DNA from: an uncultured Rhodobiaceae bacterium | GTDB lineage: Bacteria; Pseudomonadota; Alphaproteobacteria; Parvibaculales; Parvibaculaceae | NCBI GenBank assembly: GCA_913057645.1 | Contig: CAJXOU010000020.1 | Location: forward strand, 1 to 45,857 | Direction of reading: 5' to 3' | Length of the DNA stretch: 45,857 nt | Shown here: positions 2,987 through 45,857 of the stretch, piece by piece | Layout: every line of letters begins with the position of its first letter | Numbering within the stretch: the first letter of the stretch is position 1 | Program-made: the position numbers and the translations under genes | The notes under the pieces: generated by a model | Seen by the model: only the letters and a program-made list of their open reading frames with translations | What the model was told of the DNA's origin: nothing | The model's database searches: none

Positions 2987-4324
2987 CTATCTGCCGTCCA
3001 GGCGTGGCGCCGCATTCCCTTCCGGAAGGGCAACGCCCAACCGCTTCACAAGGAGATCTACCTTCGGCCGCTCCGAGACGGGAACGACATAGATGCCATT
3101 GCTCTTCTGCGTCTTCAGCCGAAGATGCTTTCTGAGCACGGTGCCGATCGTCTTATTCGAGAGCGTGCGGTCATAATCCTCACCGAACCGCGCGTTGAAC
3201 CCATCGGCGATCTCGCGGACGGAAATGCTCGGCCGGTCGCTTGCCGTGAAAGCTTCCGCCACGATCTGCAGGACTTGCGCCGGGAGCGTTTGCCCCCTTT
3301 CGTTGACGAGATCCTCCTGCAGTTGGAGAAGCGTCTTCCCTATCGATTTCCTCGTTTCGGCATCATCGATGAGACTCAGAAGCGACAAGGCGGTCTGGTT
3401 GAGCCGCGGTTCGATCTCCGCAATCACGACGCCTGGATCGACCTTGACGGCATTTCTGTAAGTCAGTCGGAAATGGAGAAGCCGGTTGCGCAACACGGCT
3501 GCTTCTTCCTTGAGGCTGTTCGGGAGATGGACCGGAATGTCGCCACGCAAGCCTCTCTGCCCCGTCTCCTCGGTGAGAAAGCGGCTCTCCAGTGCCCGAT
3601 CGTCGAAAGAATGCCGCATGCCGACGATCTTGGGGCCGAAGACATGAAAGGCCTGCGGGTTGAACTCCTTCGCACGGGTGACGATCGTCCGGAGAACCGG
3701 TAGGCCTTTGACGTTCCCATTGTTCAATATCTTGACGATATCCGCCTTGGCGTCCGAGAAGCGCAGATCCGCTTCGTCGAGAATGAGCGTGCCGCCGAAA
3801 CTGTCAAGCGTGTGGAAGATGGGCGAGACCGTCGACGCCCCGCTTGCAAAGAAGGACTTGTAGCAGAGCGAGCCGATCGTCATCAGCCCGCGCGTCTTGC
3901 CGGTCCCGTAGTCGCCGCGGAATCTCAGATAAGGCACTTCGTTGAAGGCGTCGTAGACCCAGGTGAGAAGGACGTAATAAGACGCGATCGTCTCGAACTC
4001 AGGCGAGAGATCGGTGTAGCGATGCAGAAAGGCCCGAACGTCCTCGCGGAGCCGGTCCTTCCCGCCGTGATCCGTCACGTCGGAGGGAAGCAGGACACAT
4101 TCATTGGCAATGAGGTTGTTGTGCGCCGAATACGGCACCAGCCTCTCCCCTGCCCGCGTCAGGAATTCGTCCTCGTATCGCCAATCCCCGTTCGCTTCGG
4201 CAATGACGAGCGAAGTGCGCTTCTCCCCGGCACGGTAGACAAGCTCGACAATCGTGCCGTCCTCCAGCACACGCGACACGGTAGGCGTCGGCTCCGGCTT
4301 TTCCTTTCTGGATTGCTTCTTCAT
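2987..4324 (-). CDS. AAA+ primase/helicase-like ATPase of a mobile element
   Basis: From the ATG at 4324 the product is 445 aa. It has a Walker A motif GDYGTGKT (residues ~137-144), a Walker B TLILDEADL (DE at ~183-184) and a likely sensor region (FGPKIVGMRHSF), followed by an arginine-containing segment and a C-terminal winged-helix-like part (ISVREIADGF … TIGTVLRKHL … YVVPV). This resembles the helicase half of phage/plasmid primase-helicases and related element-borne ATPases that act in replication or transfer; no primase domain is present. The open frame runs 20 codons further upstream to 4384, but that stretch looks non-coding. It is the first gene of the leftward block. Its exact substrate cannot be told from sequence alone. 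Confidence 0.65.
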   Translation of the reverse strand: MKKQSRKEKPEPTPTVSRVLEDGTIVELVYRAGEKRTSLVIAEANGDWRYEDEFLTRAGERLVPYSAHNNLIANECVLLPSDVTDHGGKDRLREDVRAFLHRYTDLSPEFETIASYYVLLTWVYDAFNEVPYLRFRGDYGTGKTRGLMTIGSLCYKSFFASGASTVSPIFHTLDSFGGTLILDEADLRFSDAKADIVKILNNGNVKGLPVLRTIVTRAKEFNPQAFHVFGPKIVGMRHSFDDRALESRFLTEETGQRGLRGDIPVHLPNSLKEEAAVLRNRLLHFRLTYRNAVKVDPGVVIAEIEPRLNQTALSLLSLIDDAETRKSIGKTLLQLQEDLVNERGQTLPAQVLQIVAEAFTASDRPSISVREIADGFNARFGEDYDRTLSNKTIGTVLRKHLRLKTQKSNGIYVVPVSERPKVDLLVKRLGVALPEGNAAPRLDGR

Positions 4325-4507
4325 CCCGACATCGTACCCGGCGCGCCGGAACGCAATAGGTGCCGGGATTTGCCGGTCAGGCATATGAGATACACACAGT
4401 CACGATTCGCGCGGGCGCCCACCGCACGGTAGAGTCTGACTCGCAGCTCAGGATTCCAGGCGCGATTGCGGGCACCCCGCCCGATCGAAGAACCGCGGAC
4501 GGGGAGT

Positions 4508-4524
4508 TTGGGGACATCGGGGAC
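4508..4524 (+). repeat. Left inverted repeat of recombinase cassette
   Basis: TTGGGGACATCGGGGAC; the reverse complement matches 6464-6480 at 16 of 17 positions. It runs on into the first GGGGACGTTCCC copy (4519-4530). Confidence 0.7.
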
Positions 4525-4630
4525 GTTCCCATACGGAGCGCGGCAGCCATCGAATATGCCGGACTGACAAATCGCGGTGCCTAGGGCGGTGCGGTGCGGC
4601 GGCTATCATGAGATGGCGGAGGGTTGAAAC

Positions 4631-4642
4631 GGGGACGTTCCC
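4631..4642 (+). repeat. Second copy of GGGGACGTTCCC (first at 4519-4530)
   Basis: The exact 12-base sequence occurs at 4519-4530 and again at 4631-4642, both upstream of the small gene and the recombinase. The spacing (112 bp) and position fit binding sites for the recombinase or a partner, but this is inference from repetition only. Confidence 0.6.
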
Positions 4643-4666
4643 TGTCTGCCCATCCGCCCCCTCATC

Positions 4667-4864
4667 ATGACGCAAAACCGGAACAATCAGCCACGCCGCT
4701 CCTTCATCGCCGACCTCTGTGTGCATATGTCCGAGGAAGAGATCGCGGCGGCCGAGGATCGCTTCCGCCGCTATGTCGAGATCGTCCGGCGGATTCACGA
4801 GTATGTCGAAGAGCAATCGGCGGATGCAGAGCATCCCGCCGGCAACGCTGCCGACAGCCCTTGA
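4667..4864 (+). CDS. Small charged protein upstream of the recombinase
   Basis: The 65-aa product is acidic and helical (MSEEEIAAAEDRFRRYVEIV), with no signal peptide or membrane segment. It ends 18 bases before the recombinase ATG inside the same inverted-repeat cassette, so it probably travels and is transcribed with it. It could be an accessory or directionality factor, but I do not recognise the family and no motif proves that. An internal ATG (residue 21) is an alternative start; neither has a clear Shine-Dalgarno sequence. Confidence 0.55.
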   Translation: MTQNRNNQPRRSFIADLCVHMSEEEIAAAEDRFRRYVEIVRRIHEYVEEQSADAEHPAGNAADSP

Positions 4865-4882
4865 GGATCAATCCTATGTCTT

Positions 4883-6463
4883 ATGAAAAAGTACGTTGCC
4901 TACATACGAGTCTCGACACAGAAGCAAGGACAGACAGGTGTCTCCCTGCAGGAGCAGCGTGCGGCTATCGAACGCTATGCTGAGATCAACCGGCTCCAGA
5001 TCGAAACCTGGTATGAGGAGCGCGAGACGGCTGCAAAGCGCGGCCGCCCGATCTTCACCCAGATGCTCGAGCAGGTGGAACGCAGCTCGATATCGGGGAT
5101 CATCCTCCACAAGATCGACCGCGGCGCCCGTAACCTCCGGGATTGGGCGGACCTTGGAGGTCTGGTCGACAAAGGCATCGAGGTTCATTCGGCAAATGAA
5201 AGCCTCGACCTACACTCGCGGGGCGGCAGGCTGTCTGCGGACATCCAGGCGGTTGTCGCCGCCGATTACATCCGGAATCTTCGAGAAGAGACGCTCAAGG
5301 GCTTCTACGGCCGCCTGAGACAAGGGCTCTACCCGTTGGCGGCACCCTACGGCTATCTCGACCAGGGACGCGGCAAGGCCAAGATACCGGATCCGAAAAC
5401 CGCTCCCTTCATCCGCCACGCCTTCGAACTCTACGCAAGCGGCAGATACACACTTCGGGCATTGCGGGAAGAACTTCACAAACTCGGTCTGCGCAATCGG
5501 GGCGGCAAGAAGATCTCCCTCGACTGGCTGTCACGAACGCTCAACAACCCCTTTTATGCTGGCATCATCAAGCTCAAGACGACAGATGAGACGTTTCGAG
5601 GCATCCACGAGCCCCTGGTCACAAAGGATCTATACGACAGGGTTCAGGATATTCTGAACGGTCGCAAGAACATCAAAACCTTTCGTCACGACTTTCTCTA
5701 CAGATGCCTCCTGACCTGCGGTGACTGTGGCTATTCCCTTATCGGTGAACGTCAGAAAGGACACATCTACTACCGCTGCCACGAGAGAGCCTGTCCGACA
5801 AAGAGCATCCGACAGGAACTGGTGGATGTGCAGATCGGACGCGTACTGAAGCGTGTGCAGCTCAGTCCCGAAGAGATGGATCAGGTAGTCAAACACTTCG
5901 ACGCCTTCGATCATCACTGGGAGGAACGGCAGACAACGATGATTGCTGCGGCGGAACTCCGCCTCAGCAATATGACGGAGCGCATGGATCGGCTAACGGA
6001 TGCGCTGATTGACGGCCTGATTTCGAAAGACACGTTCGAGCGCCGCCGAGCGAGTATTCTTGAGAACCAGGTGGCCACGGAGCAGAGTCTCGCGTCCTTA
6101 CGGGCTGGAGATCGCTCAATTCTCGAACGGCTGGAAAAATTCCTCGAACTTCTGAAAACGGCTCAACGGAGCTATCTGGCCGGAAATGCCGATCACAAGC
6201 GCATCCTGCTCCAGGAGGTCACCTCGAACCGCCTCGTATCCGGAAAAAACGTTGCAGTTGAGCTGTTTCCGCCGTTCGACCTGATCGCAAATCGCGAAAA
6301 AAGTGACTGGTGCTGCCCTTCTCGGGACGAACCTCGAACTTTTTCCGAAAAGACGAGTGTTCTCGGTCAGAAACTCATTGAAGCTATCGTATCGGAGATT
6401 GACGTTGAAAGTGATACGTATACGGATTCTCTAATGACAACTAACGATAATGTTTGGGAGTAA
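4883..6463 (+). CDS. Large serine recombinase
   Basis: The 526-aa protein begins with the resolvase/invertase catalytic domain: YIRVST with the nucleophile Ser11, then QEQRAAIERYA, the RGRPIF segment and KIDRGARN (family IDRLAR). A Recombinase (PF07508-type) domain follows at ~150-260 (PYGYL… FIRHAFELYASG …NPFYAGII), then a zinc ribbon with Cys pairs (CLLTCGDCGYSL … YYRCHERACP, ~277-306) and a coiled-coil stretch (~345-440). This is the layout of phage-type large serine integrases, which carry out directional site-specific DNA integration and excision. Full length, apparently intact. No tyrosine integrase was seen in the window, so this is the only candidate for element mobility here, though it may move only its own small cassette. 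Confidence 0.9.
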   Translation: MKKYVAYIRVSTQKQGQTGVSLQEQRAAIERYAEINRLQIETWYEERETAAKRGRPIFTQMLEQVERSSISGIILHKIDRGARNLRDWADLGGLVDKGIEVHSANESLDLHSRGGRLSADIQAVVAADYIRNLREETLKGFYGRLRQGLYPLAAPYGYLDQGRGKAKIPDPKTAPFIRHAFELYASGRYTLRALREELHKLGLRNRGGKKISLDWLSRTLNNPFYAGIIKLKTTDETFRGIHEPLVTKDLYDRVQDILNGRKNIKTFRHDFLYRCLLTCGDCGYSLIGERQKGHIYYRCHERACPTKSIRQELVDVQIGRVLKRVQLSPEEMDQVVKHFDAFDHHWEERQTTMIAAAELRLSNMTERMDRLTDALIDGLISKDTFERRRASILENQVATEQSLASLRAGDRSILERLEKFLELLKTAQRSYLAGNADHKRILLQEVTSNRLVSGKNVAVELFPPFDLIANREKSDWCCPSRDEPRTFSEKTSVLGQKLIEAIVSEIDVESDTYTDSLMTTNDNVWE

Positions 6464-23601: not shown

Positions 23602-23729
23602 CGCCAATTGCACCCGCGATTTCGCCTCGAATTTCCGTTTTTGTTCAATCACATAGGGAAATCGAGAGCCTATGAAGAGCCTAAGGCTTTAAAACAATTC
23701 TCAAAATACTTGTAAATCATTGGAAAAAA

Positions 23730-23806
23730 TGGCGCGCCCGGAACGATTCGAACGTCCGACCCTCAGATTCGTAGTCTGATGCTCTATCCAGCTGAGCTAC
23801 GGGCGC
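23730..23806 (-). tRNA. tRNA-Arg (anticodon ACG)
   Basis: The minus strand folds into a 77-base cloverleaf. GCGCCCG/CGGGCGC forms the acceptor stem, AGCTCAGCTGGATAGAGC the D arm, CAGA-CTACGAA-TCTG the anticodon arm with ACG, and TTCGAAT lies in the T loop; discriminator G and an encoded CCA end it. A T-run follows the CCA. The 3' end faces the accessory region, and tRNA 3' ends are common integration sites, so this gene probably marks the right edge of the island. Confidence 0.95.
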
Positions 23807-41906: not shown

Positions 41907-43186
41907 ATCCCGCGTTGCGCGCCGCCCGCCTCTATCCCGAAATATTGCAGATGCCAGCGAATCTCGTTTTCCTTGAGCGGATAGTCGATGCCCTCCCGTG
42001 GCAGAACCAGGTTGCCCGTAGGCACATGGGCGATGTGGGTCTGAACCGCGAGCGCGGTACGCATCGACAGCCCGGCCTTCCAGCAAAGTGCGGAAATGCC
42101 GCGGCCGCTCCGGGAGTCGATGACGGTTTCAACCATATGTGCGGGCACACCAGCGAGGAGCGACAAAGCCGTGACGACGGGTTGCCGATGCGCGAGCGTT
42201 GCCGCGCCCGTCACCATCTCATCGCCGAGACGGCCTTCCTTGTGGGCCTCCCTCATTGCCTCGACGGTCAGCGGCTTTTCGCTTCCCGCATCATCGGCTT
42301 CTATTGACGCCTGGGCACGGGCCTTGAGCCACAGAGCGGTGTCGTCGTCGAGGTCGTGTCGGCGGCCGAGTTCGTCTATGAGCGAGCGCGATACAAACGT
42401 TGCTATACGACGCATCGCACGGACAGAAAGATCGGCGCGCATGACGAGCGGCCGATGCCAGACCTCGATACCCGCAGCCTGCGCAATCACCTTGTTCAGG
42501 GTCTCTTCCCTGATCTCCGCTTTTTCGTTCGCGAGAAGCTGCGCGACCGCCGACACATCGAGCGTCGCCGCGACGGCCGCAGTCAGGTCACCGCCCAGAC
42601 CATCGCGTTTGGCAATAGCCTCGACCGCACCGTGCACGCGGGTCGTTGCCACGATTTCTATCAGGTCCTCGTCGGAGAGGAGTGGCGAGTATTGCAGCAT
42701 CGGGCCACATACCGCGATCTCCACGTCGCGCGCCAGCCGAAGTGCGAGGCTGCGAGGAATGGTGGGGCAATGCGCGACTTCGCGGGCAACGATCGCACGG
42801 ACGCGCGACAACTCGTCCTCCGCCAGCCGTTCGAGGAGTTCGACGGCACGCCTTTGAAGCGTGGTGAGCTCGCCTGAGGGCAGATCCGGCATCAGACGGC
42901 CGATCTTGCGCGCGAGTTCTTCTCGCACTTCTCCGTCCACGTCCGTACGCAGCAATTCGTTCGCCTGCATCGGTGCCGCGGGATTTCCCGCCACGAGACT
43001 GCGAACTTCGAGATCGTCGTCGCAGGCAAGGTAGTAGAGCGCTTCCGGCGGCGCATCGTCGCGGCCGGCAAGCTCGCGTTTCACGGCAAGATGGTGGCTC
43101 TCCAGGACGCGGCGCGCGTCCTCGTAGCGAAGCTCCGCAGGAAGCTTCCGCCGGGCGAACAGACGGGACAGCAGGCCGAACGCCAT
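41903..43186 (-). CDS. DUF2336 domain protein
   Basis: The 427-aa protein is all-helical with HEAT-like repeats (RYEDARRVLESH … LLERLAEDELSRVRAIVARE), typical of DUF2336 proteins of alphaproteobacteria. LVMRADLSVRAMRRIATFVS and WKAGLSMRTALAVQTHIAHV are conserved-looking segments. Cytoplasmic; function unknown, and some relatives in Caulobacter-like bacteria relate to flagellar or surface regulation. GGAG lies 6 bases before the ATG. Confidence 0.8.
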   Translation of the reverse strand: MAFGLLSRLFARRKLPAELRYEDARRVLESHHLAVKRELAGRDDAPPEALYYLACDDDLEVRSLVAGNPAAPMQANELLRTDVDGEVREELARKIGRLMPDLPSGELTTLQRRAVELLERLAEDELSRVRAIVAREVAHCPTIPRSLALRLARDVEIAVCGPMLQYSPLLSDEDLIEIVATTRVHGAVEAIAKRDGLGGDLTAAVAATLDVSAVAQLLANEKAEIREETLNKVIAQAAGIEVWHRPLVMRADLSVRAMRRIATFVSRSLIDELGRRHDLDDDTALWLKARAQASIEADDAGSEKPLTVEAMREAHKEGRLGDEMVTGAATLAHRQPVVTALSLLAGVPAHMVETVIDSRSGRGISALCWKAGLSMRTALAVQTHIAHVPTGNLVLPREGIDYPLKENEIRWHLQYFGIEAGGAQRGI

Positions 43187-43306: not shown

Positions 43307-44041
43307 ATGACGCTACCGGATATGCCCCTTTCCCCGCCTTCCCGCGGTTTCGCCCATGTCGAAACCTGGGTTTTCGATCTCGACAACACGCTTTATCCGC
43401 CCGCCTGCGATCTCTTTGCGCAGGTCGACCAGCGGATGACCGCCTTTATCGGCGACTATCTGAAAGTCGAAGCTGCCGAGGCGCGGCGCATCCAGAAGGA
43501 TTTCTACGTCGAGCACGGCACGACCCTGTCGGGCCTCATGGCGGTTTACGGGCTGGAGCCGGCCGCCTTTCTCGATTTCGTCCACGATATCGACGTGTCG
43601 GCAGTGATGGCGGACACAGCGCTCGGTGAGGCGATCGCGAAGCTGCCGGGCCGCAAGCTCATTTTCACCAATGGCTCGCACATGCATGCGGAGAATGTCG
43701 TCCGGCAGCTCGGGATCGACCATGTCTTCGACGGGATATTCGATATCGTGGCCACGGCCTACGAACCGAAGCCGCGACGGCGCGCTTATGAACGCTTTGT
43801 CGAGGCGAGCGGGATTGAGCCTGCCCGCGCGGCCATGTTCGAGGATATTGCGCGCAATCTCGAAGTGCCGCACGCGCTCGGCATGACCACCGTCTGGGTG
43901 AGGCCAGATCTTCCCGGGTCCGAACGGCACCATCAGATCTCGCATGAAGGCGCGGATGGCGGCCACGTCCACCACATAACAGAAAATCTCGGAGACTTTC
44001 TGCGCCGGGATTGCCTCGCGCCGTCAGCGCCTGCCGAATAG
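43307..44041 (+). CDS. HAD pyrimidine 5'-nucleotidase-like hydrolase
   Basis: From the ATG at 43307 the product is 244 aa. It has HAD motif [12 protein letters not shown] (Asp24/Asp26), motif [10 protein letters not shown], a Lys in [13 protein letters not shown] and the metal-binding [10 protein letters not shown]. The order and the NTLYP form match the pyrimidine 5'-nucleotidase (SDT1/PyrG-like) subfamily that dephosphorylates UMP/CMP. The open frame extends to 43091 but overlaps the start of the DUF2336 gene antisense; the chosen start fits relatives. Its stop overlaps the convergent mutL end by 18 bases. Confidence 0.88.
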
Positions 44042-44765
44042 CCGCTCGATATCGGAGAGTTTCAGTTCGACGTAAGTCGGGCGGCCGTGATTGCACTGGC
44101 CGGAATGCGGCGTCGCCTCCATCTCTCGAAGCAGCGCATTCATTTCCTCGGCGGTGAGCCGCCTGCCCGCGCGCACCGAGCCGTGACAGGCGATCGTGCC
44201 GCACACCTCTTCCAGCCGTTCCTTCAGCGACAGTGCTTCGTCGAGTTCGGCGAGATCGTCCGCGAGGTCGCGCACAAGGCCCGCCACGTCGAGCTTGCCG
44301 AACAGAGCCGGTACTTCGCGCACGACGATTGCGCCGGGCCCGAAAGATTCGAGCACGAAGCCGAGTTCGGCGAGTTCGGCCGCGCGCGCCACGATGCGCT
44401 CGGCCTCCGCCTCGTCGAGATCGACCACTTCGGGAATGAGGAGCATCTGCCGCGCCACGCCTTTCGCGGCCATTGCCTTTTTCATGCGTTCATAGACGAG
44501 ACGCTCATGCGCTGCGTGCTGATCGACGATCACGATGCCGTCAGCCGTTTGCGCGATCACATAGGTTTCGTGAAGCTGCCCGCGCGCGACGCCGAGGGGC
44601 ATCTCCGGGGCATCCACGACTTCCAGCGGTGCATCCTCCACGCGCGCGGCATGCCCACCGAGACCGGTGAAGGCGCCCTGCCAGTCCGCCACGTCTTCCG
44701 CAAAACCCGGCCGCGAGGGCGGCGCCACATGCGCCACCCTCGCCCTCGCCCCCGCCACTGCCAAA
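44024..44765 (-). pseudogene. mutL: C-terminal half of DNA mismatch repair protein MutL
   Basis: About 247 residues are present: the end of the linker and the dimerisation domain [20 protein letters not shown] then [16 protein letters not shown]. That last stretch is the DQHAxxExxxxE endonuclease motif, and CHGSVRAG with [10 protein letters not shown] completes the metal site, so the intact protein was a nicking-type MutL. The N-terminal GHKL ATPase (~330 residues) is missing: the frame runs into unrelated DNA at about 44,760. Without the ATPase, the gene cannot support mismatch repair as drawn here. The stop overlaps the HAD gene. Confidence 0.9.
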
Positions 44766-44770
44766 GGTCT
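44755..44770. other. Junction between mutL and foreign ABC-transporter sequence
   Basis: On the left, the minus-strand frame reads as MutL linker ([15 protein letters not shown]). On the right, the plus-strand frame reads as the N terminus of an ABC ATPase ([13 protein letters not shown]) with no start codon. Codon use and GC content change here too. The breakpoint lies within about 15 bases. No repeat, IS end or target duplication is visible. Confidence 0.75.
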
Positions 44771-45404
44771 TGAATTACGCCGGGTTTCCATTCGCCTCAA
44801 TGGGCGTGTACTGGTTGATCTCGATACCATCATCAAATCGGGCGAGATCGTGACGCTGATGGGGCCGAGCGGTTCGGGAAAATCAAGTCTGCTGACCTAT
44901 ATTTGCGGAACATTGCCGGTGGGCGGAACCGCCGGGTTTGAGGTCAGCGGGCAGGTTGTTCTGAATGGCCGGGGGCTGGATGGTCTGGCACCACAGGATC
45001 GCCATGTCGGTATCCTGTTTCAGGATGATCTTCTGTTTCCGCATTTATCGGTTGGCGGCAATCTGGCGTTTGCCCTGCCATCAAGTGTTCGGGGGCGGTT
45101 AGAACGCAGAACGCGTATCGAGGACGCGCTGGAAAGTGCGGGGCTTGGTGGTTTTGCCGACCGTGACCCGGCAACATTGTCCGGCGGGCAGCGTGCGCGT
45201 GTCGCCCTGATGCGGGTGTTGCTGTCCGAGCCCGGCGCACTTTTGCTCGATGAACCTTTTTCAAAGCTTGATACCGAGTTACGGGATCAGATCTGGACAT
45301 TTGTTTTTGAACAGGCGCGGTTGCGTGGTTTGCCAACCCTGATGGTGACCCATGATCCCGATGACGGGGCGGCAGCCGGCGGCAGGATCATAAATCCGGT
45401 ATAG
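44766..45404 (+). CDS. YnjD-like ABC transporter ATP-binding protein, N-terminus cut
   Basis: About 212 residues remain: Walker [14 protein letters not shown]-loop [11 protein letters not shown], signature [11 protein letters not shown], Walker [13 protein letters not shown] and the switch His in VTHD. The pattern [28 protein letters not shown] resembles YnjD, the ATPase of the YnjBCD importer. The first real residues are GLELRRVS and no start codon precedes them; the open frame continues upstream only through antisense mutL. The permease and binding-protein genes, usually upstream, are absent. Base composition differs from the chromosome to the left. Confidence 0.85.
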
Positions 45405-45539
45405 CATGCACGCGCTTCTTGCATGATTTTCGCGCTGGTCAATCGGTGCGTTTGGTCCTAAGAGAAGCGCACCGCAAAGAATTGTCTTGGGCCCGAAACA
45501 CGAAATCAAAGGCCCATGCGGCATTGGAGAATGTCGTGA

Positions 45540-45857
45540 ATGTTTCCAGAAGAAATGTATGCGATCGTCCCGGATGCGCTTGATCGTGCAACCTGCAATC
45601 GACTGATTGACGGATTTTCGCAAAAACTTGACGATGGTGGCCTTGTTCAGGGCCAGTCGGCAAGCCATATCCGCCGGTCACAGATCACCTGGTTTAACGA
45701 GACACAGGAACCGGCCGTCATGCGCCGGATCGTTGACATGGTTGCGGATGTAAACCGCAATGTGTTTGATTTTTCCTTTCCGGAATTCGCCGAAGATCCA
45801 CAGTATGCCTGCTTGTCCGTGGATCATCGCGGTCACTATGTCTGGCACAGCGACGTT
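45540..45857 (+). CDS. 2OG-Fe(II) oxygenase (PiuC-like), cut by the window end
   Basis: The frame opens at ATG 45540 and stays open to the last base (106 residues). The end shows HRGHYVWHSDV, the HxD iron-binding motif of a 2-oxoglutarate-dependent dioxygenase. The part before it (QSASHIRRSQITWFNE … FDFSFPEFAEDPQYA) is the arrangement of prolyl-4-hydroxylase-like enzymes. The C terminus with the distal His and Arg lies beyond the window. It shares the base composition of the ABC ATPase, so both belong to the foreign end piece. Confidence 0.75.
   Translation, partial: MFPEEMYAIVPDALDRATCNRLIDGFSQKLDDGGLVQGQSASHIRRSQITWFNETQEPAVMRRIVDMVADVNRNVFDFSFPEFAEDPQYACLSVDHRGHYVWHSDV

Follow-up and report, generated by a model that had tools for sequence, protein, structure and literature searches.

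The window analysed here is an entire contig (C20) of 45,857 b, belonging to a draft assembly with 193 contigs and a total of 3,752,067 b that is rated 99.99% complete and 1.09% contaminated, and whose host we call a Parvibaculum species. Towards its right end lie a gene for a HAD-type hydrolase (43,307-44,041, plus strand; PF00702, E 1.1e-12), whose start was picked by reading (the listed frame begins at 43,091), and, convergent with it on the minus strand, the C-terminal part of the host mutL (44,024-44,742, with the stop codon at 44,024). This mutL part contains the MutL_C dimerisation domain (PF08676, E 4.9e-51) and covers positions 406-611 of the 611 of NF000953, which correspond to residues 374-605 of the intact MutL of the nearest relative, G024, plus a short unalignable linker; 220 of 233 columns are identical between the two, stop included, and the HAD gene is the same mutL neighbour in G024. 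The motif DQHA(x)2E(x)4E, which we take to be that of the MutL C-terminal dimerisation domain, was read as a 12-residue stretch in the C20 protein, in agreement with the domain assignment. For this half the listed frame takes as its start a TTG that lies beyond the joint, within the foreign part of the contig, which carries two incomplete plus-strand genes of Thalassospira: an ABC-transporter ATPase without its first 10 codons (44,745-45,404; PF00005, E 3.1e-29) and the first 106 of the 184 codons of the next gene (45,540-45,857), cut by the contig end.

The left half of the window is filled by an element of a different kind. Over bases 1-23,806 the identity with G024 is 100%, and the point where it falls to about 91% coincides exactly with the 5' end of a tRNA-Arg (acg) gene at 23,730-23,806. 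A 46-base att-like repeat is found at 23,729-23,774, with a second copy on another contig (C24:17,911-17,956), and a phage-type integrase (PF00589, 2.2e-20) adjoins the far end of the island. In the host genome the island extends over bases 1-23,806 of the window and 1-17,968 of C24, or 41.8 kb that are 100% identical between two Parvibaculum species (with flanks at about 91%), and in G024 it occupies about 1,043,400-1,103,944 of contig C1, about 60.5 kb between the 46-base repeats. The cargo comprises CopB, a multicopper oxidase and two RND-type efflux pumps (the pumps named by reading), and besides the integrase the island holds a serine recombinase, a ParB-like protein, a HerA-like ATPase and a DNA methylase with an Mrr-type domain. 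Apparently, the island is a metal-resistance element that was transferred very recently. An 18.8-kb part of the G024 island (G024:C1 1,067,174-1,085,988) has no match in the host genome and falls in the gap between base 1 of C20 and base 1 of C24; this part may be unassembled or unbinned, or the element may be shorter here.

The joint between host and foreign DNA is real in the assembled sequence and sits at 44,743, the first base that follows Thalassospira DNA. When positions 43,800-45,857 were searched against 41 genomes (the host draft plus 40 relatives, of which 24 belong to the same genus), 37 gave matches; of the same-genus genomes, G009 gave no match to this query and G023 one of only 28 bases. 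In the same-genus genomes with matches, the main alignment extends no further than 44,724, the ABC part giving only short similarities; G024, which is 87% identical over the searched region, is collinear with the window from 1 to 44,722. Thalassospira-group DNA (genome G069), on the other side, is alignable from 44,743, and its opening 67 bases match exactly, against 19 identical bases in the 60 to the left of this position, so that the switch is abrupt. The 18 bases between (44,725-44,742) are assignable to neither side and lie within the variable MutL linker. An earlier note on this DNA had described an abrupt switch to foreign DNA inside mutL at 44,755-44,770; the switch stands, but its position has to be moved 12 bases to the left.

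No mobility gene is present among the listed frames at the joint, beyond which there are only the ABC and oxygenase-like genes, and there is no tRNA, the sole one of the window being that of the island. No strong repeats were found there either, only weak ones. An 11-base word, CACCCTCGCCC, is present at 44,735, immediately before the joint, and again at the G069 breakpoint, and a 14-base imperfect inverted repeat surrounds the joint (44,708-44,721 and 44,741-44,754, 86% complementary); one or the other may have helped to form it. As to the remark that neither an IS nor a repeat marks the joint, the frames there include no mobility gene and the repeats are weak.

The tail is attributable to Thalassospira over its whole length. 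Between 44,743 and the contig end, intergenic stretch included, 1,084 of 1,116 columns (97.1%) are identical to G069, and from 44,762 the tail is collinear with L020 (Thalassospira sp. MCCC 1A03138) at 90.8% DNA identity. In the genus group of L020, 28 of 29 genomes match it at E 1e-50 or better, over hundreds of bases, the twenty-ninth (G063) giving only short motif matches. The ABC ATPase piece represents 219 of the 229 codons of the G069 gene, and its start is missing on C20 because that gene begins ten codons upstream of the portion retained; the start of the listed frame is a GTG that occurs by chance at 44,667, within the mutL side of the joint. Its protein has 94% amino acid identity to L020, and a scan of the genome collection gave at least 530 confirmed relatives, of which 80 were kept; the best seven of these 80 are all titled Thalassospira (94-75%) and the eighth is at 66%. 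The piece of the 184-codon gene matches no Pfam or NCBIfam family at a threshold of 0.001, and the complete gene probably encodes a 2OG-Fe(II) oxygenase, which is the annotation in six of the seven plasmid records with a relative 29-37% identical to it. A known plasmid gene was also considered as the identity of the tail and rejected: ABC rows are 66-69% identical among the 20 plasmid records listed of 26, two records in the 80-90% band falling among the six outside these 20.

The composition of the tail differs from that of the host as well. The two tail genes have GC3 values of 0.58 and 0.56, lower than those of the C-terminal part of mutL (0.77), the HAD gene (0.74), argB (0.80) and the N-terminal half of mutL (0.79; located on another contig, see below), and the GC content is 55.3% in the tail versus 60.6% in the host. 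An ABC ATPase that lacks a start of its own, right after the mutL cut and in a different codon style, and a last gene sharing this foreign style, had been read correctly from the sequence; both genes have the same Thalassospira source.

The rest of mutL was found elsewhere in the assembly. A search for the missing N-terminal half, which the earlier note had proposed, located MutL positions 1-263 at C35:31,392-32,204, five bases short of the end of that contig (32,209 b). This half consists of codons 1-275 in an open frame with the start codon kept, takes up the last 0.8 kb of C35, is preceded by pgi (named by reading) and is identical to G024 MutL in 269 of 275 residues; it contains the GHKL ATPase N-terminal domain (PF13589, 5e-11; PF02518, 1e-7), which hence lies outside the window. 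The statement that the entire ATPase half of mutL is lost is accordingly true of C20 but not of the genome, and loss of mutL was rejected with this half present on C35. Each half forms an open frame without internal stops, and 90-98 MutL residues are absent from both, in the gap between the contigs. The host genome yielded no further mutL sharing this C-terminal half, and a second intact copy was rejected: the family matches are on C35 and C20, apart from a weak one on C65 that covers profile positions 20-75 within a frame of 614 codons.

The position of the two halves can be read on G024, in which an intact 605-codon mutL lies between pgi and the convergent HAD gene. C35 (from base 66, with some gaps) runs along G024 989,951-1,022,166, and the host part of C20, together with the island, runs along 1,022,459-1,067,173 in the reverse direction, so that C35 and C20 point towards each other with their right ends, at 1,022,166 and 1,022,459, and 292 bases lie between them. 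Given this spacing, C35 and the host part of C20 are therefore neighbours separated by a small gap. The 292-base interval has 69% GC in G024 and finds no match in the host genome, except for 40 bases at 85% on C15. Across the genus, mutL occupies a single frame in 22 of 27 genomes and is in pieces on two contigs in the host genome and in G022 (84% complete), and in G009, G020 and G023 (57-79% complete) there were weak matches of another kind but no mutL; at 90% completeness or more and 5% contamination or less, mutL is intact in 18 of 19 genomes, the exception being the host. In G022 the pieces lie on C29 and C291, and C291 opens within mutL, at TIGR00585 position 275, not far from position 263, where C35 stops; this break hints that the stretch of mutL in question may be difficult to assemble.

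Taken as a comparison of sequences, these results make it almost certain that the break in mutL is due to chimeric assembly at a contig end, which is the second of the two options left by the earlier note and is borne out by a switch from Parvibaculum to Thalassospira at a contig end, with the rest of mutL ending C35 at a distance of 292 bases. The homology switches sharply between two organisms within one contig, each side is collinear with its own source (1-44,722 with G024 and 44,743-45,857 with G069), and the true continuation is found at another contig end (C35). A chimera explains the joint, the missing ABC start, the contig end and the location of the other mutL half. In the proposed course of events, the assembler would have been unable to bridge the stretch of mutL that is GC-rich in the relative and, from the broken end of C20, the assembly would have run on into Thalassospira DNA of the same sample or library; the 11-base word mentioned above would offer a short GC-rich overlap and may have been the bridge, short as it is for a usual assembly overlap. 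Thalassospira was presumably present in the source sample; PMC8215760, from the literature on the sample, does not name Parvibaculum in its main text. Against the chimera reading stands the rarity of misassemblies, which PMC8201837 describes as relatively rare compared with mis-binning. Most likely, the real chromosome carries one ordinary pgi-mutL locus.

The opposite reading, a real and recent insertion of Thalassospira DNA in the mutL linker that broke mutL and made the strain a mutator, would agree with the clean switch and the weak inverted repeat at the joint, and with a donor segment 97% like a known lineage, which implies that the transfer would be recent; natural transfer also occurs in this host genome, as seen in the island that is 100% identical to that of another species. 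Nevertheless, we hold it to be very unlikely. Only one end of the insert is visible in the host chromosome, since C20 ends within the foreign DNA, and the joint has no mobility gene among its frames, no tRNA and only weak repeats, unlike the island on the same contig. The tail is present once in the host genome, and a search of that genome with 10.6 kb of L020 returned, besides the tail, 262 b at 68% and 42 b at 83% (the latter overlapping the tail's own part of L020), without any second end of the supposed insert, so the remaining L020 neighbourhood is nearly absent. In addition, the N-terminal half of mutL stops at a contig end 292 bases from the C20 part, in host and not in Thalassospira DNA. 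The related proposal that a Parvibaculum lineage took Thalassospira DNA into mutL without a mobile element and became a natural mismatch-repair-deficient mutator, mutS being incomplete too in this assembly, appears extremely unlikely. The earlier suggestion of lost MutL-dependent repair finds no support, with the N-terminal half of mutL on C35, and mutS is itself interrupted at the edge of a contig: C14 (53,037 b) ends after the first 410 codons of the gene (C14 48000-53037, local 3808-5038), the G024 frame has 905 codons, and the MutS_V domain was not found in the host assembly. The last 37 bases of C14 diverge from G024 mutS and have no 16-base word in common with any other locus compared, so this end is possibly another faulty contig end. 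Because both genes are affected in this way, the mismatch-repair status of the host is unreadable from the assembly.

A third reading, in which mutL is split into two separately encoded, cooperating proteins, could appeal to the open frames of both halves, free of internal stops, and is scarcely credible: the listed frame of the C-terminal half starts at its TTG in the foreign part (an internal start may be used instead), the 90-98 residues are in neither half, and the gene is one frame in the 22 of 27 genus genomes. Under the chimera reading, a false claim of a mutator and a false transfer between distant genera are removed from the record, and the tail at 44,743-45,857 is flagged as chimeric despite the 99.99% completeness rating of the genome. 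It also illustrates a simple check, which is to seek the missing half of a broken gene at other contig ends and to map both ends on a relative.

In comparison with known systems, both the N-terminal and the C-terminal half of the host mutL match the MutL family (NF000953 and TIGR00585), but, unlike an intact MutL, they are spread over two contigs with 90-98 residues unassembled. The tail has the gene order and spacing of the Thalassospira locus, which in L020 reads transporter permease, ABC gene and 184-codon gene (the G069 frames at that locus being equal or almost equal in size and spacing), whereas the C20 copy is clipped on the left by the joint and on the right by the contig end. The tRNA-Arg island, as an apparently real insertion, has a tRNA, an att-like repeat and an integrase, and the mutL joint has none of these. 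A further likeness is to the chimeric contig dealt with in PMC8201837, where fragments from two sources likewise share one contig with an abrupt change of lineage; there is no difference in kind from the chimeric contigs described there, and here both source genera and the likely neighbour contig can be named.
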